The position numbers and the translations under genes were made by a program. The notes beneath the pieces are model-generated. The model ran no database searches. It was not told where the DNA came from and worked only from the letters and a program-made list of their open reading frames with translations. A DNA stretch of 64,000 nucleotides from Dactylellina haptotyla (Eukaryota > Ascomycota > Orbiliomycetes > Orbiliales > Orbiliaceae). Positions 3,056 to 58,206 of the stretch are shown one piece after another. The DNA lies in NCBI GenBank assembly GCA_031310005.1, contig CM062379.1:6882001-6946000 (forward strand), written 5' to 3'. Positions within the stretch are counted from its first letter, which is position 1. Every line of letters starts with the position of its first letter.

Positions 3056-5298
3056 ATGTCATATTACCACCACTACAACCCATACATCACGACAGACGCC
3101 GATTATTTCTCCCGCAACGACTGGCTCGCCCGCCTCATCACCTACCTCCAAACTCAAATGTCCTCCATCACCTCCGACTCCAAGCAACTCACCATCGCTT
3201 ATGCCGCGGGTGCCTCCCTCGCCACGATAACCCTAATCTACATCTTCGCGCCCACCTTCTTCATCGATGGCTCGAGCAACCCAAACGGCCACGGAAAGCG
3301 CAAACAAACCGTTGTGGGGCTCTACAATCCTGCCAATGACTGTTTTGTCAATTCAGTGCTGCAGGCGCTCGCGGGATGCGGAGAGTTGAGGAGATACCTT
3401 GTCAGGCGGATTCTGGTGCAGGAGGAGCTGGAAGGACTGGAAGGAAAGGGGTTAGTGAAGTGGAAGGGCAAGCGGCCGATCTTGACGAGAGCGTTGAAGA
3501 TTATGCTCGATCGTAGGTTTTCTTCTCCTTTTACTAAAATTTCGTTGGTTTCAATACCAAGCTGGGCTAATTTATGAGCGGTTGCTATTTAGGACTTAAC
3601 GAGCGCCCGTTACATCGCAAGACCATCACGACCAGAGATTTTATCTACGAATTGGAGCGGGTCTTTAGGTCGAGGATTTCGAGGAACCAGCAGGATGCCC
3701 AAGAGTTTTTGCAGATTATTGCGCAAACGCTAGCTGAAGAGTATGAAGCGCAGGAGAAGGTGAAGGCAACGATTCCGAAAGATTTGAAAGTAGAAGAAGT
3801 GAAGGTAGAGGAAGTGAAAGTAGAGGTTGAAGGAGAGAAGGAGAATGAAGAAACGAATGCTTCGGTAGCAAGCGAAGAGAGCTTTGAGGTTGTCAAGGCA
3901 GAGATTGAGAAAGAGTCAAAGAATGGGGAAACCGAGATTGAAGAGTCGGTGCTGTCGGAGGCAGAGCAGACGGAGGCGGAAACAGCGATTACGGAACCGT
4001 CCACAACTTCACCGTCCGCAGAAACAGAAGACGAAAGAGAAGCTGCGAAACCGAAAATGAAACATATAACGTTAGATATCAAGGTAGAGGAAATCAAATC
4101 CGAGGATGAGAAAGACGTCAAAGATGAGAAGGGGTTGCCAAAGATTCCAGAGTTCGGTATGCCGATGGAAGGAAAGCTGGAGTCCGGAATTCAATGTTTG
4201 GTCTGCGGATTTGAGCCGAAACCCACCGCATCCACGTTTGTCGTCTTGACGTTGAACGTCCCACAGAAGAGCTACGCGACGCTGGACGACTGTTTTAATG
4301 AGCACCTATCCACGGAGTTTATTGATGATTTTCAATGCGCGAAATGCAAATTAACGAAGATCATTACGGTTCAAGAGAAGAGACTGTCGACAACCAGAGA
4401 TGAGAAGGGAAGGAGAGAGTTAGAAGCATCGATAGAAACGCTTAAGGAATGCCTTGACGAAGACCCTGAGAAACTTCCAAAGGAAATTGAGCTCCCGCCA
4501 TCGAACTTGATATCCGTTAAATCGCGCATAGCTAAGAGGACATACTTTGCGCATTGTCCGAAAGTTCTATCGATCCATCTTTCCCGCTCGATATTCGACT
4601 ATTATACCAGGAAGAATGGCTGCAAGGTCTCGTTCCCCGAGGAGATAATGCTTGGCCCGTTGACCAACCGGACGAAATATAAGTTGCTGGGACTGATAAC
4701 ACATCGAGGAGGACACGATAGCGGACATTATGAGTGCTACAGACGTCAGAACTCGCATCCACCGCCGTTCTCGACGCCGATGATGATGCCGATATTACCG
4801 GGAATGGCAATGAATGGGGTTAAAGACCTGAAAGATCTGAAGTTGGAGACGCCTGGTCCTGCAGCTTCCACAACATCCAAGCTAGATACTCCGGGAACCT
4901 CGTCAACACCAGGCACACCGGCTACACCTGCTGCGGCGAGTTCGTCTAATCTGAACTTGCCAGCTTCAGCCTCAACACCAACTTTAGTGCAGCAGTCGCC
5001 GGTGAACGAGATTTCATCGCCCATCCCCTCAGAGAAGATGGTGGCACCCGCCACCCCGGTTACTCCTATCATTACTCCAGCTACTGCGGCGCTTACCGCG
5101 GCGGGGTTGAGAGGTACGAAAGGGGATACGGCGTCATTGAAGAGCTTTCCGTCAAAATCGAAGAAAAGCAAGAAAGATCCCGATAGCAGGTGGTGGCGGA
5201 TCAGCGACGATTCTATCAAGGAAGTGAAGACGGGAGATGTGCTCGGGTTGCAGAAGGAGGTGTATTTGTTGTTTTACGAGAAGGTTAAAGTGAGGTAG
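3056..5298 (+). CDS. Membrane-anchored ubiquitin-specific protease (Ubp1/USP30 type)
   Basis: Exons 3056-3512 and 3593-5298 (80-bp intron) encode about 720 residues. Near the N-terminus, residues 45-69 form one hydrophobic membrane anchor. The C19 peptidase domain follows: Cys box GLYNPANDCFVNSVLQAL with nucleophile Cys96, the NQQDAQEFLQII box near residue 186, a CxxC...CxxC zinc-ribbon pair (CLVC, CAKC), and the His box HDSGHYECY with catalytic His near residue 531. The WWRISDDS block close to the C-terminus supplies the final catalytic-site strand. An anchor plus C19 matches yeast Ubp1 (ER/endosomal) and animal USP30 (mitochondria/peroxisomes), so it probably removes ubiquitin from organelle-surface proteins. 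Two low-complexity inserts stand out: a Glu/Lys-rich block of VEEVK-like units after the QDAQEF box, and a Thr/Pro/Ser-rich block between the His box and the last strand. The Cys box reads NDCF instead of the usual NTCF. Family is secure; organelle is inferred. Confidence 0.92.
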
Positions 5299-26415: not shown

Positions 26416-28352
26416 CTAGGTCCCTCGTCATACTGCTACGTGAATTGATTCGAATTGGGGGCGCAAGTTACTTTCTAATGGATCATTCATCGAACAACAC
26501 ATATTTTTCACCAATTTTGTAACCAAAACTTTTGCTAGCAAGGCTACGAGGAGCTAGTGAAGAAGCTATCTTACACCGCATTACCAACCAACTACAGCCA
26601 ATACTGGGGCGAGAGAAACAGCTCATAGTCCTAGTGCAGTGTTTTATGGCTTTCGTTATTAGGACATCGTTCAATTTCTGCGGTTAAATCAATTGTAGAC
26701 GGTTTCTAGGGTTTTGTAGCATCACTATGCTATACATAATCGCTGATAGTTGGCGAGATTGAGGTCACCGCGATCGTATACATAGCGATGCTTTGTGCCA
26801 CCAAAGTTCTAGAATTAACATTTATCCTTCAAGATTAACCAAACCTCGCCGCTATTATTAAAATAGGGCAAAGAAAACCGTACCATTGCTAGGCGTTAGA
26901 CAGGAATTTGGAGATGGACCAAATGTGTAGGTTACCCGATAGATTGCAATATGCTGCCAGAGATTTAACTCTTGGAGTCGATTACTGTTGTGCTGGATTT
27001 GATTCCTAGCAGTGCTATGGACATTCTACGCTATATTAGGAGCTTGATAGAGGATCAAAAGGTTCAAGAAGAAGGCGTCAGACCAATTACATCATTTGGG
27101 CCCGAATGTCACCTACGAAAAGCGACACATGCAATGTATGTCCCAAATTTAAGGATTCAAGACCCAGGCAGTATCAAAGAATAACATCCTGGTGTGCTGG
27201 CTTCATTCGAATATTCAGGCCGCTAGGAGGGTTCTCAAGATTCTTACTAATCATTGGGCTCAGTCTGAGACCGTGAATGAGGGAGTCATCAAGATGTTGT
27301 GGTGTGATAGGTCTGTGTTGATCACGGGCCAGCACACAGCACTAAGATGGCTAGTGGAAAAATATCAGGTGGGAATGAGGATGGTGCCTGGTATTGAGGC
27401 TCATAACCTCAAGAGACCATATTCAAATCATTACGGTAGCATCCGAGTTCGAAGTTTAGTTGATGTTGGGCTCAGCGATTTGGAACTTTGCTGCCTTCTC
27501 GGGTTCTGGTATGCTACAACCAATCTGGTCTAGTATTGTTGGCTTTGAGGGAACCTAGCTGATAGCGCTATACAGCTTAGTTTTTGCCTAGGATCGCGGG
27601 GGACCGCCACAGAAAACTTTATATGATATCACTAGCAAATTAGCTTTTGCAGTAATTGACGAATAGTGAACTGGTCGTGCGACCTATAGTGCACTCATAA
27701 GGATTATATTTGGATCTCGCGTCGCATTTTCGGGAAACAATCATCGCTAAACATGTTGACAACCATCTTGGCGGCTGTAGCCTGTAGGTTCAGCCTTATC
27801 CCCAAAATACAAGCTTTGGTAGTAAATATTCTAGAATGATTAAACATTTCTAGAATGGGAAATAATTTGCAGGTGCCTATGAAGTAGCCATGATGTCTTT
27901 TTGCAGGAGGCTGAGTCCGGGGACCTATTTGGTTGGGTGTTTGGGAGGCCTAACAGACCAAAAGGCAGCATTTGCTTCGCCTCCCACATAGAAAATCACA
28001 TGGTCAACACACAAACGTGAAGCACACTACGACTAGATCTTCCAAGGGCACAGCTGCACCATTGGACTCATGAGGCCCAAGGACGCAGTTACTTGAGATC
28101 TATGTATAAAATAACATTGATCCGACCTGAGTATCTCGATAAATCAATAAGTATCAAACAACATAGTATCTTCAAAGCATTAAAGCATAACTCTCTTCTA
28201 TTTACATGACCAAACCCTCTCATAAGGTCAACCCCCAACAGGACGATATATTCTCTGCCTTTTTCAGCATCCCTCCACAAGACCAAGGGAGATCATCTAA
28301 ATATCAAAACCAACCTCCATTTCTAATAAACGAGTCCTTCAATCCATTCAAA
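26416..28352. other. Gene-poor AT-rich region before the first Gly-rich gene
   Basis: About 1.9 kb. It includes short frames at 26972-27184 and 27192-27533 (rightward), separated by a few bases, with protein-like but unrecognised sequence; they might be relics of one decayed gene. A TATAAA at 28105-28110 precedes the Gly-rich gene. No terminal repeats or transposase motifs seen. Confidence 0.45.
28105..28110 (+). promoter_or_regulatory. Candidate TATA box of the first Gly-rich gene
   Basis: TATAAA located 248 bp before ATG 28353 and about 100 bp before the in-frame upstream ATG at 28206. Confidence 0.4.
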
Positions 28353-28823
28353 ATGGCATTCTGCGGTCTCTTCAGTCGAAAGAAGAGAAGAACGAGCGAA
28401 AAGACGACAGGAAGTGTGAGCACATACAATAGCACACCTGCCGTTCAGGTTCACCAGAATCCTCCAAATAAACCCGCGACTACTACAACATCATCTGCTA
28501 CAAGGTATAAGACATACGGCGGATCCTCATCAGGATACCGACCTGCCGGTAGCGGATACTCAAATAACTACAATTCTACGGCCATAAACTCAATGTTGGC
28601 GACAAGTTTGAGTCCTGATAGTGGACCCACCACTCATTATCATAGCGGCCACAATAGCCACCATCATCACTCTAACGACCATGGGGGAAGTCATAGCTAC
28701 TCGTCTGGCGGCGGCGGCGGCGGCGGCGGCTATTCAAGCTACTCATCTGGTGGCGATGGTGGTGGTGGTGGCGGTGGCGGTTCATCTGGAGGTGATGGCG
28801 GCGGCGGCGGTGGTGGATGTTAA
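28353..28823 (+). CDS. Small low-complexity protein: basic N-terminus, His-rich, poly-Gly tail ending in Cys
   Basis: Single exon, 156 residues from ATG 28353, which has a strong context (AAA before, GC after). The frame is open to an upstream ATG at 28206 (205 residues), but that ATG has a poor context. Layout: MAFCGLFSRKKRR (Cys next to a polybasic patch), a Ser/Thr/Asn/Pro linker, a Tyr/Gly/Ser stretch, a His cluster (HSGHNSHHHHSNDHGGSH), and a tail of Gly runs broken by SS or GD, ending GGGGC. The Gly tail is built on GGC and GGT codon repeats. No signal peptide or domain. The N-terminal Cys plus Lys/Arg patch would suit lipid anchoring to a membrane, and the His cluster metal binding; both are inference. 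It resembles the protein at 30419-30880 in layout. Confidence 0.65.
   Translation: MAFCGLFSRKKRRTSEKTTGSVSTYNSTPAVQVHQNPPNKPATTTTSSATRYKTYGGSSSGYRPAGSGYSNNYNSTAINSMLATSLSPDSGPTTHYHSGHNSHHHHSNDHGGSHSYSSGGGGGGGGYSSYSSGGDGGGGGGGGSSGGDGGGGGGGC
28707..28730 (+). repeat. (GGC)8 trinucleotide repeat inside the Gly-rich gene
   Basis: Eight GGC codons encode the first poly-Gly run. Further GGT/GGC runs follow to 28820. Such a run is prone to length change between strains. Confidence 0.9.
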
Positions 28824-30418
28824 GGCAGATTCTAGTTTATATATTGTGCAAACTGTTTGATTTCCGTACTTTTGTATAGAAGTAATTGTTATTTCCGTCT
28901 GTATCAATTTGAATTCGAATTCATCATGTAATATCATATAAAATTATAAATACTGTTCCGGTCGAAATTGCCAATGTGTTAAAATAAGTGCCATCTCAAT
29001 GAATATTTAAAGCTAGAGCGATGCGAATAAACTTTCGCGCTTGAGCCTCAAGTTTTGGGGTCAACGACGGCTCAGGCGATGCCTAACATACCTAGTATTT
29101 TCTATCGCCCAGGAGATGCACTGATTGGTCAAGCCGTGGCAGCCGCCACCGCGCCAGCGGCTGATATATCATAATAGCAGCCTTAAACATCCGCGATTAC
29201 ATCGCCTACGGAACATTGAGAACTACCGCCCCGAGAATATTAAGAGCTATGAATTTCGAAAGTCAATTCGAGGATTTCAGGGACATCAAAGGTTGAACTA
29301 ACGTTCTTGCTATCATAGGAGTTGACGGTCAAGAAATACCTTTACCATGACTTTGACAGCTAACGGCCCGGTTACAAAACGTTCAATTTGAACTCACCTA
29401 GTTTCTACCAGACTGTTGAAGATGCGATGAGAGGAGCCAATATTGTGGGTTTTTTGGTATGCAAGTTATATTTAGTTCTTAACGACTTGCAACCTGACAT
29501 GCCATATATAGAAAATAGCAATATATATATATATTGTATGGATTTTTAAAGTTTATATTCTATTCTCTAGATTATGCTAGGTAATAAATGGCTACTCGCA
29601 TTGCAGTAACAAATAAATTGTAACATTGCCAACCTATCCAGGTGGATAGAATGAGGCAAGTTGCCGTCTTGGAAAGTTTAGCTTATCCCAAGCTGGAGGC
29701 AATATTACTTGAATACGTACCATATGCATATTCGACCTCAATATAATGCAGCCTAGTTGCTAGCCTGGGATCGAAGACTTTTACAATAATGGTTTCACCA
29801 AACCCACCAAACCCACAAGAAGATATGTCTCAAAGAGAATTTCTATAAACGCCAATAGAACGAAAGTTGAATGGATTCATGACATCAGCGAACGCCACAG
29901 ATAATATCCCATTTATTGTGTTGTTGGCTTCGCCCTTCGCGCTGCCCGCCGACAGCGATTGCACAGCCCTCAAAGAGGTATTGTCTGTTACTAGCGTCCA
30001 CAAACGGAGAACACTTCAGGCTAAACCAAGAAGGAAACTCGACCAGAAGTAGCATCGGAAGGAAGTGACAAAAGTAGACTGGACCTCTTTGCGATAGATA
30101 ATTCTATTCGCCGAAAAAGATGACTTTATCTTTTGGCCAGCTGGATAGCACCACGTGAACAGCCAAAGCTGTTAAGCTTAATGGCGCCGCTCACCTTTGC
30201 GCCCACAATTCCAGGTATAAAGCTCCAACTAAAGTCGCTGTTCTTAGACCCCGCACCTTCGAGTCATCCGCGCCAGTATCATTTGTTACCCGGTTTGAGA
30301 ATAAACTGGTCAAGACTTCATTTTATCACTTATTTGCCGTTTGACGATTACTTTCTGTGTCACGGCCTCGGTCTCAAGCTTTATACAACCCCCAGACCTA
30401 TCAATCCTACCTTAAAAA
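28824..30418. other. Spacer between the two Gly-rich genes
   Basis: About 1.6 kb, AT-rich, with a short AT dinucleotide run near 29,520. The right end contains a possible TATACA at 30382-30387, 30 bp before the next start codon. Short frames (for example 29867-30052) are unsupported. No transposon signature seen. Confidence 0.45.
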
Positions 30419-30880
30419 ATGAATATTCTGCAGATCCTGCATCTAAAGAAGAAAGCCAAGGACGTCAAGGCCAAAGATACCGCCAAGTCGTCAAGCAAAG
30501 AGTCAACCCCAGTTATCACGAAAGATGCCAGCAGCCCGCCACCTCCTGCCCCATCCACTACTACCAGCTCCACGAAGGACGCGCCGGCTGCAGACAAACC
30601 GTCCAAGTCAGAAACTGAAGGTTCAAAAATTGTAACCCAGGAGACTGTTGCGGCCAATGCCATGGTAACAACAAGTCTGGCCCCAGTCGCTACTAGTGCA
30701 CCTCACAGCCACGACAATAATACTACGACAGCGGGGCATAGCGAGGCTGTTACAGATGGAGGGGACGGAGGGGTTTACAGTGGTAGCGGGGGCTTCCATG
30801 GAGATGCTGGCGGTGTATCCGGAGATGCAGGAGATGCTGGCGCGGCGGCAGCTGGAGACGCCGGATGCGGTGCCTTTTGA
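30419..30880 (+). CDS. Small low-complexity protein, Lys-rich N-terminus and Gly/Asp/Ala tail
   Basis: Single exon, 153 residues. It starts MNILQILHLKKKAKD, a short amphipathic stretch followed by a Lys cluster. A Ser/Thr/Pro/Lys linker follows (with PPPPAPSTTTSS), then HSH and a Gly-rich tail built on GDAG/GGVSGDAG units ending GDAGCGAF. No domain or signal peptide. The order (basic head, S/T/P linker with TTTTSS or STTTSS, His residues, Gly tail with a near-terminal Cys) is the same as in the protein at 28353-28823, 1.6 kb upstream on the same strand. The two may be old tandem duplicates or just share a compositional plan. Expression is suggested only by a TATACA about 30 bp upstream. Confidence 0.6.
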   Translation: MNILQILHLKKKAKDVKAKDTAKSSSKESTPVITKDASSPPPPAPSTTTSSTKDAPAADKPSKSETEGSKIVTQETVAANAMVTTSLAPVATSAPHSHDNNTTTAGHSEAVTDGGDGGVYSGSGGFHGDAGGVSGDAGDAGAAAAGDAGCGAF

Positions 30881-33800: not shown

Positions 33801-35168
33801 CAGACTGTTTCTGCAGGGAACCTTAAAAACTTTGCTTCCAAAAATTGCAATTTTTCACGGCAATCCCAGCATCGCATTTTAGGGAGAGACAGGCAGAAAA
33901 GGTACCGGAGGTACCTCCCCTGGGCCATCGCACTAAACCTCTGACGAAACGACTGTTGAGATACCCACCCAAAGCCACGTCTCTGTCTTGTGCAAATTGG
34001 CAGACCAGATTTTAAATTTGGGGGGGTAGCTACAATACCCTGTGCTGTCAGCCTCAAACGAACCGAAGAACAAATAGAAAACAAAGGAACGACTAACAGC
34101 CGGACCAGCGAGACTAGAAAAGAAACGGAAGCCTGCATACGCTTTCTGCCATCCCTTCTGCTGCTTGCTGCTATTCTTGCCCTTCCTGATATACCCTAGC
34201 AGCAGCTGCCAGCAGCCCACAGCAGGCGTAGACACCCCAGGTACCAGTTGCTCACCTTCACGTTCGACGTTGGCGTCTGTCATTCGTTTTTTTCCTGCCA
34301 TTATTCCCAGTTCAGCCCCCAACCGTTGTTCAGCCGTTCAATACGAAGAGCGCCTGACAGATCGGAAAGACAATTCATAAGACCCACTACATTCTTTCGC
34401 CAGGCGTTTTGGAAAGAAAAGAAAGAAGGAAGGAAGGAAGGACCGAGACAAATATTATTCATTCACGGATCCGTTCCTCAGGCTCATTTTCGAAGCATTC
34501 TTCTGAATAATCTCGATCGGTCAGAATTTCATAGCGTTAATAATAATACTGTCATTGCCCGTTCGCCCCCCACAGGCTTGTACGGTACCTCCCTATTGCA
34601 GCGGTAGGAACGACCATCCTTATCGACTCTTTGATCGTTCGTTTTAGTATTATTTTTATTTTTATTTTTTTGCCAGCGGTCATCAAGCTATGGCCCTTGA
34701 GCTTTGAGTAATCGCACACAATCTGCCAGCCCCAATCAACCATCGAGGATCTTTGGCCGAAGAATATATCCCTCCCCGGATCCTTTTCTTTACCCCATCC
34801 CCAATCGTCTGACCGGTGGATCTTTCAGTATCTCATTATCCCGCACAATCTCACCCATCTTTTCGGGGCATTTTCGAGTCCTTTCGCATCGTCTGTGGAG
34901 AGAGCGGTTGCAGCGCACCCGATTCGAACGAGGCATCCCATACGCTTACGGCAGAGATATTCGACAAGATGAAGCAGTAGCCGAAGGTGTTTAACCAGAA
35001 CCGCCCTGAAACGACACGAACCAGATCGCCGGCCTGCCAAATTACGAGCGCGAGTCCCGAAGCAATAATACATCCCGACGGACTAACCCGCCCAGAAAAG
35101 CCACTTGCACCTTGCTGTTCAAAAGGAGATCCGAGTATTTGAGTATTTGAATTGTGGTTCAGCCCGCC
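30881..35168. other. Long intergenic region upstream of the DUF1765 gene
   Basis: About 4.3 kb. Many short frames occur on both strands, none with a domain. A frame at 31018-31293 (minus) is somewhat protein-like but unrecognised. From about 33,800 to 35,150 the DNA is rich in C/T blocks, with several GGTACC-type sites (near 33,901-33,916 and 34,583), AAGG repeats at about 34,426-34,441 and a T-run near 34,650. That pattern suits a long promoter and leader for the large gene at 35169. Confidence 0.45.
34427..34441. repeat. Short (AAGG)n repeat
   Basis: About four tetranucleotide units next to a purine-rich run in the putative leader of the DUF1765 gene. Confidence 0.7.
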
Positions 35169-38100
35169 ATGGCGGCCCTCACCCTGGAAGCTTTGCCCAA
35201 AAATGTGGTGGTAGCCGACTCGCTGGGCAAAGTTCGACCATCCAGTTTCCTGCTCCGCTCAGCTTCTGAGCCTCACCTCAGCTACATGTTCTCCAAGTAC
35301 GACCACATGCACCTGGCCGGGGCCGACTCGATCGAGTTCTCGCCTTCTTCTTCCAGGTCCCCCTCGCCCAACGGCAAAGATGAGTCCATCTTCAGCAATC
35401 CCGAGGACGACAACTCTTCCACCTCGACCACCGGCTCCACCACCCCCAAACGCCCGGCTCCCGTCCTCGAACGCCGTCACACCCTCCATCGCTCTCCAGA
35501 ACTCTCTTCCTCCAGCTCCTCCAGCTTTCGCTCTCTGAAATCGAAGAAGCGCCAGAACGGTGTCGCATTTATGAAGGCGCCCGCCTCCGAAGGGCACGTC
35601 GTCACCTTGTCATCCTCCCACCGGTCGAATTCTTCCATCAGCTTGTCGTCGGTTGGGAACGCCATCCCGAGGAAAGATGAGCTGTGGCTGGGCTTCAAAA
35701 CTCTGGAGAGCGACTATTCAAAGTACGTCTACCACCTGCTGGTCTTCCCTTTCTGTCCTCGGGCTTCGTCCCCGTTAATTGATGAGGCTTTTGTTGCTAA
35801 CCATAACTTGTTTCCGTGCAGGTTCAACTGCAAGTCGATCTTGCAACGCACCCACATCCTCCGCTGCACATTAATTCCCTTTCTACGCAAGTTCGACGGA
35901 ATCACATCCTCCGTCCCGATCGATATCAACGAACTGGACCGACGGATTCGTACGTTGAACAAATGGTGGACATTGCTGTTGGCCTCCCTCCGCGCCAATG
36001 GTGCCAACATGGTCCCGCTTCAGGACAGGTCGACGTACCTCGAAGGTGTCACCGGAATAATGTCTCGACCGGAGTGGAGAGCCGCCCCTTCATCTCTCGC
36101 CCCTCTATCGACCAGGAACCCAAGCCCCTCGAACTCTTGCTCGTCACTTTCTTCCGCTTCTTCGACAATATCATATGAGAAGTCGTTGCAACACGATATG
36201 AAAGTGATGTATACCACTTCCCTGCTTGACACGCTCGCTTTCACGCTCGACGGATTGTCGGAGCAGCAGTGCGGTGCCTTGGTGCATTTCGCCGGAAAAG
36301 TTATTGCTTATGCATTTTTCTTCGTTAATGGCGTCAGCGAAATGCTCATCGGGCTGCTCGGACTGAAAGCCCCACAACTCCGTAAAGTGTTGAACGAATA
36401 CGGAATCGGACGCGGAATGGATCTCCAGGCCGTTGCCGAAGGTGTTATCGGCGAATTCCCCCACGCTATTCATTCCGTCGGCTTCACAACTATGAGCGCG
36501 GCTCTCCCTCGACTCAAGAAACCTGGCAACTATATGGTGGCCACAAGTAACATCGACTGGAAGGGACCATGGATACCACGATGGACCGGCCGAGAAACGG
36601 ATCTGTTCTTCGTGTTTGTTAAGCACTACCACCTCCTGCTTGCCGAATATTTGCCTTTTGGAATCACCGCCACCGCCCGACTCTGTGCCCCAGGCTTCTT
36701 GTTCATCCAAGCTCAGCTCCTTTCCCTTTTAGAGACTGCAATCCACCGAGGACCACCACATCTCATACCCCAGGAAAATGCGCCCTCTAATGTTACCTTT
36801 GATGATATCGTTGGAGCTCATGTTGTCAACGGAAATGCCATGCAACCAGCACCTTCGAAAACAATGTACCGCCCCCTGATGGACCAGCGCATCTTCTCTC
36901 TCTTGAAGGATATCACCATGGATAAGAATTTCAACGACGCCATGCGCGATGTCTTTGCAACCGCGTTCGCCAACCTCCTCAAGTCACTCGCGAAAAATAC
37001 GAAGATTGTGGAACATTCGGCCTGTGTGTCTCTCTGCGACCTTTTGGAAGAGGGCATCCCAGCATTGTACCAATTCGAAAAGCAATCTGAAAATGGTGCT
37101 AAATACATCGACTGGCCATTCTGGATGGATGTTTCGAAGCAAATGATGAAGAACGAAAACAGCATGACAGAGCTTCGGTTGTTTTCTTTCATCTTTGTCG
37201 TATGGGACTTGATCGCCGAGGACCCGGAAAGGAAACGTTCGATTTGCTTGGACTGGTTGTTGGCAGACGATATGTGGCAGCGATTTTTCTCCCATTGGTG
37301 CCCGATGGTCCGAGCTTTCTACATGAGACTCATCTGCTGGAGAGTCGGCAGGTTGGGCGGTCATGGATCGGACCGCGAGATCAGCTACACTGCAGACGGT
37401 GTTGAAATATCGACAGCATCTTGCGACCAGGAAATCTTCGATAAACTGATGACCCGACTTCACGAAGCGCACGGAGCTTTCGTGTATATGCGAGACGAAT
37501 CGGATCGAACTTCGTCCGTCCGCCCATCGGTCGCTCCATGCCCTCCAGCACCCAATCGCAAGTTATCCATTCTTCGAGTTGAGACGCAACCAGGATTTGG
37601 TCGCCCATTCTCCCTCGATAAGATGGTCCAACCTCAAGCGGAGCCTGCTAAACCAGCTCCAGATCCAAAGGCTACTCAACCGGAATCTAATGGAACCAGT
37701 CAGGAGAACGGTGGATCCACCATCAAACGGAAATGGTCGCTTCTTCGGAACTTCCTAGGCGCAGCTGAAGCCCTAAAACCAGATCCGACACCGACACCTG
37801 TCGTGCAGCCTAAAGCCTCGCCGGCTCCACAACAATCATCTCGCGGATCCGCAGGTTCAGCGTACATTCCGCCACGTGCGTCATCTGGAAGGGAGGCCTG
37901 GCATGGCACCAAAGTTCCTTACGGCGCGGCATTCATGAACCGAACTAGAATGCAGTTCAAGTTCGTATTAGAGTTTTCTGATCGACCACCGCATGCCAGA
38001 AAGGGCAAGGGCAGCATGGTACCACGCCTCCCACGTTTGACACAGGATTGGTTGGAATCTATCGGTGAAAGCAAGGAGTCGTCACCACCCGCGGAACCGA

Positions 38101-38285
38101 CCACACTTTCACCATCCGGCCCAGTGCCTCGAAATTGGAAGTATTACGGCAGGGCGTTGGCAGAGTGGACTCTCGTTGTCGACGAGATTGATAACTTTGT
38201 TGAACGCAGGAAGAACGAAGGAATCCGAGATTTCCGTGATACTGAAATTCCGATTCTCTCCGTAGACTCCCTCAGGAAAGGTTAG
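35169..38285 (+). CDS. DUF1765 / UPF0592 family protein
   Basis: Exons 35169-35722 and 35822-38285 give 1,005 residues. The 99-bp intron is a multiple of three with no stop, so the genomic frame reads through it; splicing joins DYSK|FNCKSIL, which restores the conserved start of the domain. I start at ATG 35169 (GCCCGCC before ATGG, strong context) rather than the upstream GTG. The first 170 residues are Ser/Pro-rich and disordered. The DUF1765 region then runs to about residue 760, with DELWLGFKTLESDYSKFNC, ILRCTLIPFLR, and WPFWMDVSKQMM / WLLADDMWQRFFSHWCPMVR. The C-terminal part is again disordered, ending in a short conserved-looking block (GRALAEWTLVVDEIDNFVERR). The relatives are yeast Ydl073w (Ahk1, reported in osmosensing through Hkr1) and fission yeast SPAC7D4.03c. 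A signalling-scaffold role is inferred from that relative only. Confidence 0.85.
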   Translation: MAALTLEALPKNVVVADSLGKVRPSSFLLRSASEPHLSYMFSKYDHMHLAGADSIEFSPSSSRSPSPNGKDESIFSNPEDDNSSTSTTGSTTPKRPAPVLERRHTLHRSPELSSSSSSSFRSLKSKKRQNGVAFMKAPASEGHVVTLSSSHRSNSSISLSSVGNAIPRKDELWLGFKTLESDYSKYVYHLLVFPFCPRASSPLIDEAFVANHNLFPCRFNCKSILQRTHILRCTLIPFLRKFDGITSSVPIDINELDRRIRTLNKWWTLLLASLRANGANMVPLQDRSTYLEGVTGIMSRPEWRAAPSSLAPLSTRNPSPSNSCSSLSSASSTISYEKSLQHDMKVMYTTSLLDTLAFTLDGLSEQQCGALVHFAGKVIAYAFFFVNGVSEMLIGLLGLKAPQLRKVLNEYGIGRGMDLQAVAEGVIGEFPHAIHSVGFTTMSAALPRLKKPGNYMVATSNIDWKGPWIPRWTGRETDLFFVFVKHYHLLLAEYLPFGITATARLCAPGFLFIQAQLLSLLETAIHRGPPHLIPQENAPSNVTFDDIVGAHVVNGNAMQPAPSKTMYRPLMDQRIFSLLKDITMDKNFNDAMRDVFATAFANLLKSLAKNTKIVEHSACVSLCDLLEEGIPALYQFEKQSENGAKYIDWPFWMDVSKQMMKNENSMTELRLFSFIFVVWDLIAEDPERKRSICLDWLLADDMWQRFFSHWCPMVRAFYMRLICWRVGRLGGHGSDREISYTADGVEISTASCDQEIFDKLMTRLHEAHGAFVYMRDESDRTSSVRPSVAPCPPAPNRKLSILRVETQPGFGRPFSLDKMVQPQAEPAKPAPDPKATQPESNGTSQENGGSTIKRKWSLLRNFLGAAEALKPDPTPTPVVQPKASPAPQQSSRGSAGSAYIPPRASSGREAWHGTKVPYGAAFMNRTRMQFKFVLEFSDRPPHARKGKGSMVPRLPRLTQDWLESIGESKESSPPAEPTTLSPSGPVPRNWKYYGRALAEWTLVVDEIDNFVERRKNEGIRDFRDTEIPILSVDSLRKG

Positions 38286-38902: not shown

Positions 38903-39509
38903 TCACGACTTCTCATTAACCAACTCGCCAACAACCAAGTACTTTCCTTCAAACTGGTCGAACCACCCTTGCAAGGAATCCTTCTCCTCTGGTGTCAAAT
39001 CCGCCAAGGTATCCAAAGGCTTATCAAGCGGTGTCAACAGACTATCATCCAACGCGCCCTTCGCAAGCCCTCGACTCGCATCCCTACCCGCGAAGATATT
39101 ATACGGCGCGCCGGGCCCATAAAACATCTTCCCGGCGGATACGTCGAAGACAGTCCCCTTCACCCCGAGCAAGATACGCGGATCATCCGTGCCGTTGTAT
39201 TTTAGGAGTGTTTTCGGCGTGTACGTTGTGAAGACTATGGGCTCTGGCGCGGCGACGGTGGGGATCACAGTGGGCTGGAAGCGCATGTATACCAGGTAGG
39301 CGGCGAGGGAGAACAGTATGAGGTTTAACGGGGTGAAGAGGGGGATTCTACAAGTTTACTATTAGCTTCCGGGTTTTTTATGGGTCTGGAAACAATGGAG
39401 CGGGATATATCAGAATTGTGGGGGAGAAATACGCTTCGGCAACTTGCGGGGCCGCGGCTTCCATGATTTTGGTGGTCTCGACGATGAGAGGGTGCACAGT
39501 GTCTGCCAT
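38903..39509 (-). CDS. DAP1: DAP1/PGRMC-type membrane haem-binding protein (cytochrome b5-like)
   Basis: Minus-strand exons 39509-39433 and 39347-38903 give 173 residues. The 85-bp intron has donor GTATTT and acceptor TTGTAG, with a GCTAAT branch-like site; the phases match (GC|A). The N-terminus (MADTVHPLIVETTK) leads into one membrane helix, TPLNLILFSLAAYLVYM, at about residues 29-45. The cytochrome b5-like domain follows, with YNGTDDPRILLGVKGTVFDVSAGKMFYGPGAPYNIFAGRD (given here as adjacent blocks: YNGTDDPRILLGVKG and FDVSAGKMFYGPGAPYN), where Tyr residues serve as haem ligand in PGRMC1/Dap1. ER-membrane Dap1 binds haem and supports Erg11/CYP51 and other P450s in sterol synthesis and azole tolerance. 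It lies tail-to-tail with the DUF1765 gene. Family is secure; the short first exon is inferred from phase and splice signals. Confidence 0.88.
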
Positions 39510-41907: not shown

Positions 41908-44068
41908 ATGGTTCGAAAATGTGCATTCTGTCGGGAGGATAAGAAGAAGGTAAAGCGTCAACAGTATTCATTTTCCGCCGCGTATAAATTCTCTCGTATA
42001 AAATAAAGATACTTGTGATCATAATAAGATGGGCTAATAGATAGAAATGGCCGAATTAGTGCGTTTCAGTTAATGGGGGCTGGCCAAACAAATGCGACTG
42101 GTGCATCAAATCTAGGCGCCCATGCTCTGAGCGTACCGAGCCTCAAGACTCCATAGATACAACACCGATTTCTCGTCCAAGTAACTTTAAAATAGAGTTC
42201 AGAACGACTTTAGAAATGTCTGTCTGGAGCTAGGTTGCCCTTTTTTCCAATTTGTTTTTTACAAAACTAACTCTTATTTAAATAGTGTCAAGGACTTCGA
42301 TTGTTTGCTATATCTTCTGGCAGGTTTAGTCGATTATAATGAGCAGAATTCCGCTATCCCGAGCCCAGTAAGCTCATATGAATTAGACTTTGAAACAAGA
42401 GAATTGCCAGGTCCGCTCGCTTTTGGTTTTGACGGCCGATATCATCGACCTTTTAGCGAAGCTTACCTCCACCATAACTTCGAACTTTTTCATGCTATAT
42501 GTTTACTCTCAAAAACAGGGCTTGAAAAGAAGCTAGAACTCCTTCAAAGAGAGACAGAGATTGTTATTCAGTATTATAATAGTAAGAAGCGATTCTATGA
42601 AGTATCGGTCTTAGTGGGTATAATGATGACCTCGGTGAAATCATATACAATAAAAGCACTTGTTTCAAGGAATCGAGACATTTCGTCACAGGCGCGGTAC
42701 CTTGCCACAATGATCGAAAATCAAAAGGAGTGTGGTCAACTTTTTCTTTACCTGAAAGCTGCAACAATCCACCCATTTCAAACTCCTATCTGTCCTCCAT
42801 CATTTGAAGACTTTCTGGTGGCAGAACAACGACTAGCAGGTTTAAATAAGTACTTAGAAATAGGTTCTGATTCAAGCCTCTCACCATTGGAAAGAAGAAT
42901 GGTGCCGGCGTACTCGAGCATAGACCCTATTTGGCACCGAGCCTGCTTTATAGCCCAAGATTGTACTGTATTTCGAGAACGCCTACAGAAAAAACCGGAT
43001 GTCTTTTGGCATCAAAATCTACTCGGCGAGACAGGTGTACAGATAGCCTTTCGAAACGGGCTAAGAGATACCGTGCCATTCTTCCCTGAAGAAATGGAGG
43101 AAATTTTGGGCAAAGATATTCTCGAGTTCACCGATATTCGTGGGATGGATGTCGTAACATCATATATCCTTTACCAGAATTTAAGCCAGATTTTCTCAAC
43201 AATATCACGACCCTGTCTTGAACGACGCTTCGCAGATATGAAGACGGGATTCTTTGTATCAACAACCGAATCAAAAGCTTCAGAGCGGTTCCGCAAATAT
43301 CTATTAAACTCGAAGTCTTCGAGTTGGATGTGCGTCGATCCATATCAACTACTGGCTGTCTCTGGCGAGTTCACGTCTATTAAATTATTAGACGACGCTG
43401 TCGAAGCCACGCATCTCTTTGATACAAGGCTAGGAACCTATCGAAAATCTTCTATTGGCTACTTCACAAAGGTCTATAGTTATATAAAGCCTCCTATCTC
43501 ACCTCTAGTATTCGAAGACCTTCATCCCATAATCCTTCTAGGTCTTTTGAACGAATTCGATATTCTGGAAGATATTCTAAGAAGGTACCCCGCACTTACA
43601 CGGCAGGAATCAGAGGGGGGCTATCTTGAGAGCATAGTCTTGCTTACGCTGCAAGCTGGCCAAATGAGCCTGTTTCAGAAACTATCAACACGAATTTGCA
43701 GCATCAAAAGTTTCGAGAGTTTAGCTACGCTATCACAGTATCTTGCGGAAATTACCTCACCAGTTACCTTTTCTACGTGGATCTTCTTCATTTTATCTAA
43801 ATCAGCGGAGTTTCACGATAACTCGCAGCTACGTTGTCACTTGACTGCAATTATCCTACGCAAAATCCGCGCCCAACTTGAAAGTCCTAGTTACCTTAAT
43901 ATTTACTACGACCAACTCACACAGTGGGGATTTCGGCAGGTAGATGAACGGGTACGTGTGGTCTTTGTAATAGGTAGATATACCGAGAATTTCCGTTTAT
44001 GCGAGTGCACTACTTGCCTTGCGCAATCGGCATCAATACCAATCAATCTAGACTCTGAGTGGTTCTAG
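41908..44068 (+). CDS. Zn2Cys6-finger protein with ankyrin-like body and C-terminal CxCxxC (tandem copy A)
   Basis: Exons 41908-41949 (42 nt), 42060-42217 (158 nt) and 42286-44068 give 660 residues. The first two exons assemble a zinc cluster: Cys5-X2-Cys8-X6-Cys15-X10-Cys26-X2-Cys29-X6-Cys36, with an intron directly before Cys15. The donor at 42218 (GTCTGT) is weak, but it is the only one that aligns with copy B (EFRTTLE|IVKDFDC against QFREVVE|IIRDFDC). The body has repeated helix-loop units that look like degenerate ankyrin repeats (NLLGETGVQIAFRNGL; DIRGMDVVTSYILY; DLHPIILLGLLNEFDILEDI). The C-terminus has a second Cys motif, Cys639-X-Cys641-X2-Cys644. No membrane helix. A nuclear DNA-binding regulator is the obvious guess, but the finger spacing and the body are unlike standard fungal_trans factors. 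Copy B follows 1.9 kb downstream in the same orientation. I do not recognise a named family. Confidence 0.8.
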
Positions 44069-46008
44069 TCATAGAGTTGGGAGAGTTATTTGCACCGAAA
44101 TATTCAGCTTGCTCTTAAATAACGTTCATTCACGAATTCATTCGAGATGCAATGGACTTAGATATTATTTGTCTGCTAATGATAATACTCATAAATATAG
44201 AATAAATGGATATCATTTATATTTCCTTTCCAAGTCGAAATCATTCATTGCTGATGCTAGGTGACACAGTGGGTCTATTGTCAGTAGTGGTTTAACTTCA
44301 CCTGCTACTTGAGCTGCTTCTAAGCTCTTTGTGAAGCCTCGAGCTCAAAAGCTAAGGCAGCATGGGAATCTAGCCTGAGGAATCGGTGAAGTCACCAGAA
44401 ACCCTGATTGGCGCTGCCTATGGTGGGCAAGGCCAGTAAATTTTGCAACAAGGCTGATAATTACAGGGTTGCTGTCAGGCTGGTGACTAGACCGCTACTT
44501 GCAGTAATTCCACATACGTTGAAACTCGGAGAACACCATGTCCCCCACAGCAAGCGGATGCGGGTATTCTGGAATCAGTTCACTTACTGATATTCCCAAT
44601 CGTATAGAGATTTCTGATTTGTGACCAAACTTCCCAATTTTGTATTCTAACCCTGTGGGATATTTGGAGAGTGGAGAAGGGCCCAGGCTAAAAAATAACT
44701 TTCTCACTTTGCAATAGTCATACTTCTATTTGATATATGTAAATGTTAAAGCTTGCGACTCCTATCTCTCTCTCAGGAGGCTGAATTGTGACCAGAACGA
44801 TCCAAATCGCAGCTTGAGGAATTATAAGAATTGCATGATGATATGTCGCTCCAGCTAGCAGCTGGGCTCCCCGCACCATCGATGAGAATCTTCCTCCCCT
44901 GTGAAACTCTCGTTTAACTTTGTTTATTAATTTGCGACTAGTTTTCAGCGAGGCGCCGATGCCGTGAGCGTAGCCAGTCCCGTTTATGAAAACTGGGTAT
45001 TGAAATAAGAGGCAGTGAAAATTCGTCAGCCTTCGTCCAGGTATGAATCGAGAACTGAAGTAACACCACCAAATTTAAATGCGACACTTGCTGGATCCCG
45101 GAATCTCCTATCTCAGTTCCGCCTCCTCCCCATCCCCCCCATGTTCATCGCATGATTTTCACCATACCAAGTATCAAGTCTTCCACTGAACTCCTAAGCA
45201 ATCGCTAGCGAGAAGGGCTTGCGGCGCTCTAGGTACAAGACTGCAGGGCCAGGTAGCTCGGCCTTGCGTTGTTAAACCGGGATGTACTACTACTGTACTT
45301 ATCTGCAAATTGGTCTGAGAACTAGCTTGTTCGTTACCTGCGAAGCAGATTTCATAGCATACCCCGACCAGGATATACTCCCAAGGATCTGACATCCTGT
45401 TTATTGGTTGGTGGGATTTAACAAACCCATATCACTGGACAACTAGTTCTTTGCTTCTCGGTACACCTCCCAGGCGGCTCAGTGTCCGAATTTAGCTGAA
45501 TAGGTCGAGACCATGGCGCCCCCACTCGACACCATGGCGAGAAAAACAAAAAATGCGGAAGCGGGTGTCGCAATATGCACGTTTTGGGAGTCGTCTGGGG
45601 CCCATGGGGGGACTCTTAAGTTCAAGAAATATAGGGCTTGCGCACTCTGCGTTCGTTCCAAAATATTAATGAGCTACATCGCAGACACTGAGTTCCTGAA
45701 AGAAGCTACGCAGGAGCGCTCGAGCAGGATATGTGGCTATATAATGTGTCTACATCCCCGCCTCTCTGTACTATCATACCATTTCTTCCATATAATATTT
45801 GCGGTTTTAAACCTCAACCTCCGATTCATGATTTCAAACACAATACATCGCCAGTCGGTGCATCTCCATATCAGGTATAGCTAACACTTTATTTACCTAT
45901 GCTACTTAAATCGCATAGAAGCCTACGCTCGCGCACTGCGGACATTATTCCAAGTCCGAAACTTCTTTGATATATGCGATTACGACTCTCTTTACAAGGG
46001 CGTTGAGG
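44069..46008. other. Spacer between tandem copies A and B
   Basis: About 1.9 kb with no recognisable remnant of a third copy. A 123-codon frame at 45513-45884 contains CALC but not a zinc cluster and looks random. The right end carries the promoter of copy B; no clear TATA box. Confidence 0.45.
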
Positions 46009-48284
46009 ATGCTTCTAAAGTGCGTATATTGCAGACGAGATAAAAAGAAGGTAAGCACACGCCTATTCCTTAAGTATTTATTTTATAACATGAGGAGCAG
46101 GATTAACATGTTGCGATATACATAGTGTATCTCAGAAGGTAAAGGATGGCCCGAAAAATGCAAGCACTGCATCAAATCAAGGTTTCCTTGCTCGGAGAGA
46201 GTCCATACAAAGGACTATACTGCAAGTGTTATTATTCCACAAACCCTTGCACCAAAATTACAATTCAGAGAAGTTGTCGAAATGTAAGTCATGAGTTTCT
46301 TTCGATTAGAAAGGTCACTGTTGGGAATATCCTCAAGGCTTGAATTAAGAAAACCAGGCTAATTAACATCGGCATCAGAATCCGAGATTTCGATTGTACG
46401 CTATACCTTCTCGCCGGCCTCCTTGACTATTCAGATCACCATATATGTCCTCCGATTACAGAAATAGATTTTCAAGCCCTGGGTATGCTCTACAGTAAAC
46501 CCGAGCGCCTTCAGTCTGCCTTCGTCGTAGAAGGTGACTATTGTTTCCCGAAAACCCGAGATGATCTGAATCGCAACTTCAGAGTATTCAATACTACTAA
46601 GATTTTCTGTAAATTCAACCTCGAAAAGGAACTCAAGAAACTCCGAGAGGAAGCAGAGCTAGTAGTCGAATATTACAATAGCAAGCAAAGATATACCGAG
46701 GTGTCTGTCCTGTGCGACCTTATGATGGCTTCTCCGGATTCATATACCACCAAAGCCCTTAGGGAGAGAAATACCAACCGGATGCTGGAAAGGTATCTCC
46801 CTACTATCACATTGAATGAAAAACAGCGTGGTCAGCTGTTCCTCCATATAAAGGCGTCAACTCTACCATCTGATTCTATACCGGTTTGCTTACCAACTTT
46901 ACATGACTTTCTCGAAGCTGAAAAAACACTGTCCGATTTGGAAAATCGCTTGGAAGATACCTACTCTTGTGATTGGGTACCTATTTGGCGGAATTCATCG
47001 GTTCTATATGACAAGATCGATCCAATATGGCATCGTGCTTTATTTCTTGGAGACCGAGATCCCACTCTACTCGAAGGACGATGGGGGATCTTTCCTGAAA
47101 ATCTCCTTGGCGAAAGCTACGCCCATATCGCATTACGGCACGGGCTATCATACCTTGTTACCCAGCTTCCGCTTGAAGAGATGTCTTACAGTCAAGTACC
47201 TTACTATGGGAACTTTGATATCCGCGGAATGGACACCCTTACTGCGTATATACTCTACGGGCTTCGCCAAGGTCTATACGGCCGAGATGGGTCGCCATGT
47301 CCCAAAATCAGCATCAACAATACAGAGCATCGAAATGGATGTTTCTTTTCAGTCGATGAAGTTTCTGGACTCGCGCGTATCAGAAGGAACCTTCCTGATC
47401 TCGAAACGCAAGATTGGGTCCTCCTACGTCCGTACCAACTTGCCGCGCTCCTCGGAGACCCGATGATCATTGACCAATTCGACCTCACCCTATCGCCAGA
47501 TCTCGAGCTTCTACTAACAGTGGGTCAGACCCCTGTCGACACTAACCCATTATGCTCCAAAAATCTCGAACTATACAGATATTTGAGAAACGCTATCCCG
47601 GTAATAGATCTGGGAGATCTGCACCCGGTAACCTTATCAGCGCTCTCGGGATACCTACACATCACAGAAGGAATCCTAACCAGATATCCGGGACTCGAAA
47701 AGCCGCAATACGAAGGAGGCGCTTTGGAAAGCCTTGTCATAATCGCGTTCAAGATACAGGAACCAAGTCTGCTAGACTTACTTTCAGTTCCGATTAAGAC
47801 CCTCGTTAACGTTGATATTCTCATCGGCCTTTCGAGCTATGCGGCTAACTTTGCAAATCCGACTCTATTTGACAAGTGGATGAAACTTACATGGTTTCAC
47901 CCGGCGAGAGAAACCTGGCGGCAAGAGATGGGGACACGGATGGCGGCGGACTTGAAGGAATCGAGTAACAAAGCAGATATTGAACCTATCGTGATACGCG
48001 CGCCTCTCATAGTACGCTGCCTGTTATGGCAGAAAGTTTTATCGGTTTTGCTTGCACGATACCGATCAGAGGTGAACGGGGATAGAAAAGGTCAGATCTG
48101 GCGATTCTGGGAGATACTGCAAACGATGGCAGAGAGCAAGTCATTCCTTGAAGCTTGCCAGTGCGTTCGTTGTGAGAGAGAATGGAGAGACTTCCATACT
48201 ACCTTTGGCGTATGGCAGGACATGTTCAGATATACGGGCGATTACGATTTATTGATGGAATACGACGATGAAGAGTTCTTATGA
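46009..48284 (+). CDS. Zn2Cys6-finger protein with ankyrin-like body and C-terminal CxCxxC (tandem copy B)
   Basis: Exons 46009-46050 (42 nt), 46126-46283 (158 nt) and 46379-48284 give 701 residues. Exon 1 and 2 lengths and phases equal those of copy A. The zinc cluster falls at the same residues (Cys5, 8, 15, 26, 29, 36; CX2CX6CX10CX2CX6C), including shared DKKK and GWPxKCxxCIKSRxPCSE blocks. Matching body blocks include the YYNSK-EVSVL segment, GQLFL-K-A-T, DPIWHRA, ENLLGESYAHIALRHGL, DIRGMDTLTAYILYG, RPYQLAALLGD and GDLHPVTLSALSGYLHI. The C-terminal motif is Cys660-X-Cys662-X2-Cys665, followed by an acidic tail absent from copy A. Both copies look intact, so both are probably under selection. 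Copy B has a better splice donor (GTAAGT) at its second intron. Function unknown; a DNA-binding regulator or sensor with a repeat scaffold is inference. Confidence 0.82.
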
Positions 48285-55938: not shown

Positions 55939-57057
55939 TTAATTCTCATGAATACCGTTATATAGAAAATTAAGCGCATCATTCCCCCTAATAACGCCTT
56001 TCCTACCAGCATTCGGCCCACTCGTCCTCCCAAGAAGGAAATCTTTCATCTTCTTGGGATCCCCTCGCAACTCCGGACGTCTAACCATTAACTCCGCAAC
56101 CACACCAGCCACTAACGGAGCAGCAGCAGAAGTCCCCGTAACATTATCATTATACCGATCATTCTTAGCTGGTGCGTTGATCACAGAGCCCGGAGCGTAG
56201 ATGTCCACACAAGGTCCCGTGTTAGAGTACCCGGTCACTTCATTAACACCCTGCGCATCTTTTTCTCCCGTCATCTCTTTCTTTCCCGTCGCACCGACTA
56301 CAATCATCTCTGGCACATTCGCCTGAATGCCCGCTGGAGCATAGTCGCACGCATTGTTGGCATGATTTCCCGCGGACACAACGATGTGAATACCCGCTCT
56401 GATGGCATCACGTATCGCATCCACTTGGTCTTGCACTTCCTCTCCGAATTGGCTCTTCTTCGAGCCTCTGGATATATTAATTAAAGACCCAACGAAGTCC
56501 TGATGAGTATTCGGATCGGTCTGCTTTTCGGCAACAACCTTCAGATGCCGTGCTGTGATTTTTCGGAGACATCCAGGGATACCGTATACGGTGATATCGC
56601 AGGCCAGAAGATTGACCCGCTTGGCTACCCCGAACTTCGAACCGCCTAGTATTCCTGCGATTTCAGTTCCGTGCCCTGCGAAGCCTTTTGTTACCGCGCC
56701 GTCGCCCATCATGGATAGTCGGCCGCCGAAGTCTGGATGTTCTGGGTATACGTTGCCATCGATCAGATAGGCGTCTACACCAGCTCCGGAACGGGGGTCG
56801 TGGTAGTAATATCCATGTGTGGTAAGGCTGTATACGCTCTTATCGGTTTTTGGCGCCGAGATTCTCGCAAGATACCATGGGGCTATCTCTCTAACGGGGG
56901 CGGGGAAGTCGGCTCTTTTCTCTTTAATGCTTCCCGCAACTGGGTTGGATGCTAAGGGGATCGCTAACACCGCAGGTGCGAGCGAAAACAACAAAACAAT
57001 ATGTATAGCGTGAGGTGACTTCATAGGGAATGAATTTCTAATATTATTCGCGATCAC
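55939..57057 (-). CDS. Divergent secreted subtilisin-like serine protease (S8)
   Basis: Intronless, 372 residues from ATG 57057. An internal Met12 (MKSPHAIHIVLLFSLAPAVLA) begins a clean signal peptide and may be the true start. The mature part resembles proteinase K: APWYLARIS, then YYYHDPRSGAGVDAYLID. Catalytic residues are present: Asp100, His129 (in GHGT), Asn231 (oxyanion, SAGN) and Ser310 (GTSAAAP). The signature boxes are altered: IDGN for IDTG, GHGTE for GHGTH, SRGS for SLGG, and GTSAAAPLVAG for GTSMAxPHVAG. Only about 25 residues separate the signal peptide from the PW-LARI start, so the usual I9 inhibitor pro-domain is missing. It might be an active protease with altered specificity, a weakly active enzyme, or a binding protein. 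The frame is complete. Family is secure; activity is uncertain. Confidence 0.88.
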   Translation of the reverse strand: MIANNIRNSFPMKSPHAIHIVLLFSLAPAVLAIPLASNPVAGSIKEKRADFPAPVREIAPWYLARISAPKTDKSVYSLTTHGYYYHDPRSGAGVDAYLIDGNVYPEHPDFGGRLSMMGDGAVTKGFAGHGTEIAGILGGSKFGVAKRVNLLACDITVYGIPGCLRKITARHLKVVAEKQTDPNTHQDFVGSLINISRGSKKSQFGEEVQDQVDAIRDAIRAGIHIVVSAGNHANNACDYAPAGIQANVPEMIVVGATGKKEMTGEKDAQGVNEVTGYSNTGPCVDIYAPGSVINAPAKNDRYNDNVTGTSAAAPLVAGVVAELMVRRPELRGDPKKMKDFLLGRTSGPNAGRKGVIRGNDALNFLYNGIHEN

Positions 57058-58206
57058 GCGCCAAGTGTATCGAATTATCGTCTAGAAGGTAAACCAAAAC
57101 CAGGAGAATTGTATACCAAAGCTATATCACCGGCGCATTATAGCCCCAAATACGCCTTTATAGTTTTCCCAATCGTGCAAACGACGATCTGACCTCGGTA
57201 CGGACAAAGCTATAGTCCAGACTGGCGCTGCCATGCCACAGGATTGAAGATTCCAACCTGCCATATCTCGTAGGTTGAGAAGAATTCCGCATCGACTAAC
57301 TCACTAAGTTAACCTGGTATCGGGCCGAGATCGATCTTTCAAATCTTAGTGCACAAGATGAACCAAGATTGTGGTTCCTAACAGCCTGATCGGGACTAGC
57401 ATGGCCTTGTGTAGTATCTCTTCTGGTCCTCGGTGTATAAAAATTGATTCATTGCTCGGTGTCATGGGGAATCACAAGGGGAGAATTAAGCTACGATCTG
57501 TCTGGGACTTTCTGGTTATGGAAGAACTAATAGAGAGCTAGAGCAAAGCTACTTTTTTGCAAAAATCTGAATAAGTGAGTTCGATGATCCACAAGACGAA
57601 ATGGTCTAGCACCTCGGTTGTAATCGAACCTGATTTTGAACCTTCTTTGAATACTTCGGAAGACACTCCAAAAAAGTTAAAATCCTCGAGATGAAACGCC
57701 CATATACGCAAGGGGTGTGCCTGGAGCTGCAGATGCCTTGTCCGATATCGCGGGGTTTGGAGAGAATTGTGTTGACGGCACTTCCTGTTAACTATCATTC
57801 AGAATTACACCCTTGTGACTATGCAGAGACGGGAGAGAATAATTTGTGGCTATTTCTTTTACGAGATAATTCATGCCCGAATCATCGGCTCTTGAGCCTG
57901 TATGCTGCGAATACCAAGTGATTTGCGGCGCAGTCGCTGTGTCGAATATATTAAATGCACCTGCGCATCTTTCGCAAGGTCCAAACAGGGGTCCATTAGG
58001 CTTCTCGGTGGAAAGAAAAAGAAGCATAAGAAGAAAATCTTGATGTAAATGAAATATATTAAAATAAAAAAGTTTATTGAGGCTCCAACGGTTGAACAAA
58101 AGGAATCAAGTTTTGGGCCCCGTCATGGAATAATTGCCAGAATCAAAATACCAACGAAAATACGCCTGTCTTCTAGGTATCATTTGAATGCAAAACAACC
58201 CGCTGC
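57058..58206. other. Intergenic region between seipin and the subtilisin
   Basis: About 1.15 kb. It holds the subtilisin promoter on its left and seipin 3' DNA on its right. Short frames (57538-57798 minus; 57691-57921 plus) are unsupported. No other feature. Confidence 0.5.

Follow-up and report, generated by a model that had tools for sequence, protein, structure and literature searches.

A tandem pair of zinc-cluster proteins with an ankyrin-like body in Dactylellina haptotyla, probably DNA-binding regulators

Zn2C6 proteins make up the most abundant group of fungal regulators; their usual partner, fungal_trans/MHD, is largely uncharacterised (PMC10141177; this and all other papers are cited from parts of their text). 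A 64,000-nucleotide (nt) stretch of contig CM062379.1 of Dactylellina haptotyla, hereafter the window, carries two tandem genes, A and B, which combine an N-terminal six-cysteine (Cys) finger with a body of another kind. What are these proteins, and how old is the pair? A reading of the letters alone (the sequence-only reading) had proposed an undescribed regulator or sensor class made of a finger, a repeat scaffold and a second metal-like motif. On the sequence evidence we favour, with a probability of about 0.6, an old tandem pair of DNA-binding regulators in which an ankyrin-like body stands in place of fungal_trans. Their family probably forms a small branch, so far little studied, within an ordinary class of gene regulators.

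Genes A and B are located on the forward strand, 1.9 kilobases apart (44069-46008 between the stop of A and the ATG of B), and their products are 660 and 701 residues long. Each spliced frame stays open as far as its stop codon, which ends at 44068 in A and at 48284 in B (Table 1). In both genes, intron 1 lies between codons and ends directly before the codon of the third zinc Cys (Cys 15), while intron 2 is in phase 2 (codon split after the second base), at a position common to A and B. The spliced coordinates confirmed the earlier reading of a 42-nt exon 1 and a 158-nt exon 2 in both genes, as well as the intron in front of the third zinc Cys. Overall, the two proteins are ~36-37% identical (alignment of 580 columns, expectation value (E) 9e-113).

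The finger has the pattern CX2CX6CX10CX2CX6C with Cys at residues 5, 8, 15, 26, 29 and 36, identical in A and B, exactly as previously described. It is the best conserved part between the two proteins (26 of 40 residues identical). A CX10 finger is also found in three relatives from other species (P0001, P0005 and P0006, introduced below), and a third copy in the genome has CX11. All six sequences show the Zn2Cys6 pattern CX2CX6CX5-12CX2CX6-8C near the N-terminus. In P0003 and P0004, a 20-residue loop (CX20) separates Cys 3 from Cys 4 at the same place, beyond both printed ranges (CX5-12 in PMC7178551, CX5-9 in PMC5082525), and these two fall outside the pattern; the gene model of P0002 has no finger. 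The CX10 spacing had been regarded as unusual. We rejected this idea, because CX10 is on the long side but ordinary, within the printed CX5-12 consensus.

All six finger peptides matched Pfam Zn_clus and no other family, with 12.6-17.9 bits. None of the six reached the cut-off of 21 bits, which is a diagnostic score and not part of the class definition. Whole P0003 scored 7.3 bits against Zn_clus, below the cut-off, and whole P0004 gave no match to it. Over the whole genome, Zn_clus marked 74 places, with A, B and the third copy not among them. Against the solved Leu3 DNA-binding domain, the B finger scored E 0.0043, and all six of its Cys fell in register; the P0001 finger matched Leu3 only at E 2.3, ranked behind a ferredoxin. 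Judged by its Cys pattern and by the match of B to Leu3, and with a Pfam score below the cut-off, the finger is a Zn2Cys6-type cluster. This supports the original assignment, and relatives from other species carry the finger on the same body.

The body had been described as a set of degenerate ankyrin-like repeats without the expected fungal_trans domain, and both parts of this description found support. Its ankyrin fold is a predicted one, from two AlphaFold models in which the body resembles an ankyrin solenoid. None of the eight proteins (A, B and P0001-P0006) matched a Pfam Ank family; the repeats in A and B are so degenerate that Pfam does not recognise them. At the sequence level, fungal_trans had no Pfam match in A and B (E up to 1) or in P0001-P0006 (E up to 10), and A and B fall outside the Zn2C6-MHD (CeGAL) group. 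Pfam KilA-N/APSES and copper-fist were not matched by any of the eight proteins either. A and B had no Pfam match of any family with E up to 1. Of the six relatives, five had one family each when E was allowed up to 10, all below the cut-off and none in common.

For the eight members of the alignment and profile A2, NCBIfam gave one weak match, in one member. The A2 profile gave seven matches to sequences of solved structures (E 0.93-8.9); the best was a ribosomal protein, and the seven included Leu3 (two) and three designed ankyrins. Structures of fungal_trans were absent among the 50 matches listed for either AlphaFold model, an absence that excludes nothing. Outside the middle of the body there was no ankyrin likeness, neither for residues 60-275 (E 0.96) nor for residues 575-702 (E 0.83). 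Between A and B, the helical region ahead of the ankyrin-like part of B (46380..47003) shows stronger conservation than the ankyrin-like part itself.

The second motif, CxCxxC, reads CECTTC in A (residues 639-644 of 660) and CQCVRC in B (residues 660-665 of 701). Both proteins had been said to end with it; the motif is indeed conserved, but it stands 16 and 36 residues before the end rather than at the very end. It occurs once outside the finger in each of the eight proteins, in the same alignment columns, and is kept in all nine sequences when the third copy is included. Shuffled bodies contained CxCxxC in 103 (A) and 124 (B) of 20,000 cases, with a range of 23 to 167 of 20,000 across the proteins. 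Because the motif is rare in shuffles and occupies the same columns in all eight proteins, it is not a chance occurrence. As for its metal-like character, the three-Cys motif is conserved but there is no clear fourth ligand. A fourth invariant Cys lies 59 residues upstream of the tail motif in P0001 and is present in all eight rows; by eye, the third copy has no counterpart of it. No conserved histidine (His) follows CxCxxC. A metal or redox role of the motif is a guess, and a structural role is as likely.

Three protein searches yielded six relatives, namely P0001 and P0005 from Orbilia ellipsospora, P0002 and P0006 from Arthrobotrys entomopaga, P0003 from Orbilia oligospora and P0004 from Arthrobotrys megalospora. 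These Orbilia and Arthrobotrys species belong to the class of nematode-trapping fungi. All six relatives come from these two genera, in a listing that is not exhaustive. The first search scored 7,994 candidates and found three proteins, missing P0004-P0006. A profile search scored 7,991 and found five, missing P0003 though it was in the query, and a search with residues 1-85 of P0001 scored 27 and found three. Since the searches miss true members, the restriction to this fungal group is a lead and not a result. All six are recorded without a Pfam domain. In Uniref, the names of P0001 and P0005 start with 'Zn(2)-C6 fungal-type domain-co'; hence, the finger had already been noticed automatically. 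The alignment of the eight proteins has 53 listed invariant columns, and A is at most 39% identical to any relative.

In the tree of the eight proteins, A grouped with P0005 and P0006 (99/97) and B with P0001 and P0002 (97/96), and a tree in which A and B were held together was rejected (p-AU 0.003). Counterparts of both A and B are present in two further species, O. ellipsospora and A. entomopaga. When the third copy's first body piece was added, the B group stood (95/97) and the placement of A was open; the tree was rebuilt without this piece because its row was very long and A could not be placed. The locus tags of P0005 and P0001 are consecutive (TWF694_010350 and TWF694_010351), and the longest contig listed for each has 2,091,018 bases; the A/B-type pair appears to be still linked in O. 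ellipsospora. P0006 and P0002 share a listed longest contig of 1,599,543 bases, which suggests linkage in A. entomopaga as well. The tree and the consecutive locus tags therefore point to an old pair, and the duplication is probably older than the split of these species.

The copy number in the full genome had also been left to be counted. We searched 39,806,839 bases in 11 contigs with either long exon and with exon 2 of B; the counts are lower bounds. Each search returned at least three places: those of A and B, and one more on contig C7. This third copy has its ATG at L004:3301 and an exon 1 of 45 nt. The codon of the third Cys, at L004:3421, opens exon 2, which reaches a donor at 3582 after 161 nt. 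The next acceptor ends at L004:3653, which yields a phase-2 junction reading I-V-Q-D-L-D-C, compared with I-V-K-D-F-D-C in A. These junctions, read by eye, together with those of A and B imply that the three copies agree in the place and phase of both introns. The tail motif is CRCSAC. The body changes frame near L004:4780-4840, which either a short intron or a frameshift could explain.

How do A and B compare with known systems? They share the N-terminal six-Cys cluster and basic stretch with Zn2Cys6 factors such as Leu3, Gal4 and the Zn2C6-MHD (CeGAL) proteins. In contrast to these, A and B have an ankyrin-like body and a CxCxxC tail, lack a recognisable fungal_trans/MHD, and score below the Zn_clus cut-off. 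The likeness to IkB/Bcl-3 ankyrin proteins amounts to 12% sequence identity, and these proteins are not known to carry a zinc cluster. Mbp1, Swi4 and Swi6 (APSES/KilA-N) follow the same plan, a DNA-binding domain and ankyrin repeats in one fungal regulator, but their DNA-binding domain is a different one; A and B have no Pfam KilA-N match, and their repeats escape Pfam. AoMbp1 of Arthrobotrys oligospora, in the fungal group of the relatives, combines an APSES head with two ankyrin repeat domains (PMC12565038). The copper sensors of the Mac1 type carry a C-terminal CXCX4CXCX2CX2H (PMC4992176), which includes CxCx2C, like the tail of A and B. However, A and B have the CxCxxC part only, no following His and no Pfam copper-fist match, and fall outside this type.

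In the open literature, covered as titles, starts of abstracts and passages, with subscription papers mostly outside it, we found no zinc-cluster/ankyrin protein; within this range the combination is, as had been suspected, undescribed. No title or abstract start under the species and locus-tag names dealt with these genes. The papers PMC10512319, PMC4035324, PMC9605165 and PMC3675110 concern separate proteins or KilA-N/APSES factors. Shelest's survey tabulates combinations of DNA-binding domains (PMC5415576); it covers such domains only, and an ankyrin partner would therefore not show there.

By analogy with other zinc-cluster regulators, the Leu3-like cluster at the N-terminus would bind CGG-type DNA sites, and pairing may be aided by the helix that follows directly on the linker. 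The helical region and the degenerate ankyrin solenoid would replace fungal_trans and bind partner proteins, as in Mbp1. The CxCxxC tail would be a small conserved site of metal or redox type, serving to cap or control the body; we infer this role, as we do the binding of DNA and partners. A natural family with the same DNA reader on an ankyrin-like body would demonstrate the modularity of the reader; with it, this fungal group would have a small regulator set (three genes found here) open to deletion and testing. A more specific version appears quite doubtful to us, namely that these are lineage-specific one-component regulators of the Orbiliomycetes, with a zinc-cluster reader, an ankyrin body as receptor and, at the end, a Cys sensor of metal or redox state, and that the tandem partners work jointly, for instance as a heterodimer that has stayed linked from before the species split.

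Other explanations have to be weighed against a pair of DNA-binding regulators. It is rather unlikely that A and B are ordinary zinc-cluster regulators whose fungal_trans has drifted past recognition and whose ankyrin likeness is a shared helical-pair arrangement only. We also consider it unlikely that the proteins are not transcription factors but cytoplasmic or chromatin adaptors, with a zinc cluster that binds protein or RNA and an ankyrin-like body serving as a receptor-like scaffold, for example in self/non-self recognition. The marked divergence between species (no relative is more than 39% identical to A), finger scores below the Pfam threshold and the 20-residue loop in P0003 and P0004 would suit an adaptor. 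However, the finger is the best conserved part of A and B (26/40 versus 36% overall) and keeps the basic stretch of DNA-binding clusters, and only three genomic copies were found (a lower bound), unlike the expanded repertoires that are generally known for recognition proteins.

It is very improbable that the frames of A and B are decayed, functionless duplicates. The frame change in the third copy would fit decay, as would the donor of intron 2 in gene A, GTCTGT (42218-42223), whose poor match to the consensus is a weak point. This donor is supported, however, because B has GTAAGT and the third copy GTGAGG at the same place and in the same phase. Decay also sits poorly with frames open over 660 and 701 codons, with relatives in other species that hold the finger, the tail and the invariant columns, and with introns in phase in all three copies. 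Splicing at the GTCTGT donor is possibly inefficient.

Table 1. Features of genes A and B, the third copy and other parts of the window.
Feature	Position	Strand	Remarks
Gene A exon 1, MVRKCAFCREDKKK, first two zinc Cys	41908..41949, 42 nt	+	Spliced reading; tblastn of P0001 and P0005 matches here
Gene A exon 2, finger Cys 15 to 36 (to 42125), then linker	42060..42217, 158 nt	+	
Gene A exon 3, body and tail	42286..44068	+	
Gene A approximate ankyrin-like stretch	42908..43810	+	Limits by eye from alignment to modelled proteins, A not among these
Gene A CECTTC tail motif	44000..44017	+	
Gene B exon 1, MLLKCVYCRRDKKK	46009..46050, 42 nt	+	
Gene B exon 2, finger Cys 15 to 36 (to 46191), then linker	46126..46283, 158 nt	+	
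Gene B exon 3, body and tail	46379..48284	+	
Gene B helical region ahead of ankyrin-like part	46380..47003	+	
Gene B approximate ankyrin-like stretch	47004..47888	+	Limits by eye
Gene B CQCVRC tail motif	48156..48173	+	
Third copy	L004:3301-5435 (contig C7)		
DUF1765 protein	35151-38285	+	Left neighbour of the A/B pair
Cytochrome b5-like protein	38903-39355	-	Left neighbour of the A/B pair
Subtilase-family protease	55939-57081	-	Pfam Peptidase_S8, E 1.1e-26
Two open frames, putative genes	28191-28823, 30416-30880	+	Glycine-rich C-terminal ends with histidines

The DUF1765 and cytochrome b5-like neighbours have no obvious functional link to A and B. The window further contains the protease and the two open frames listed in Table 1.
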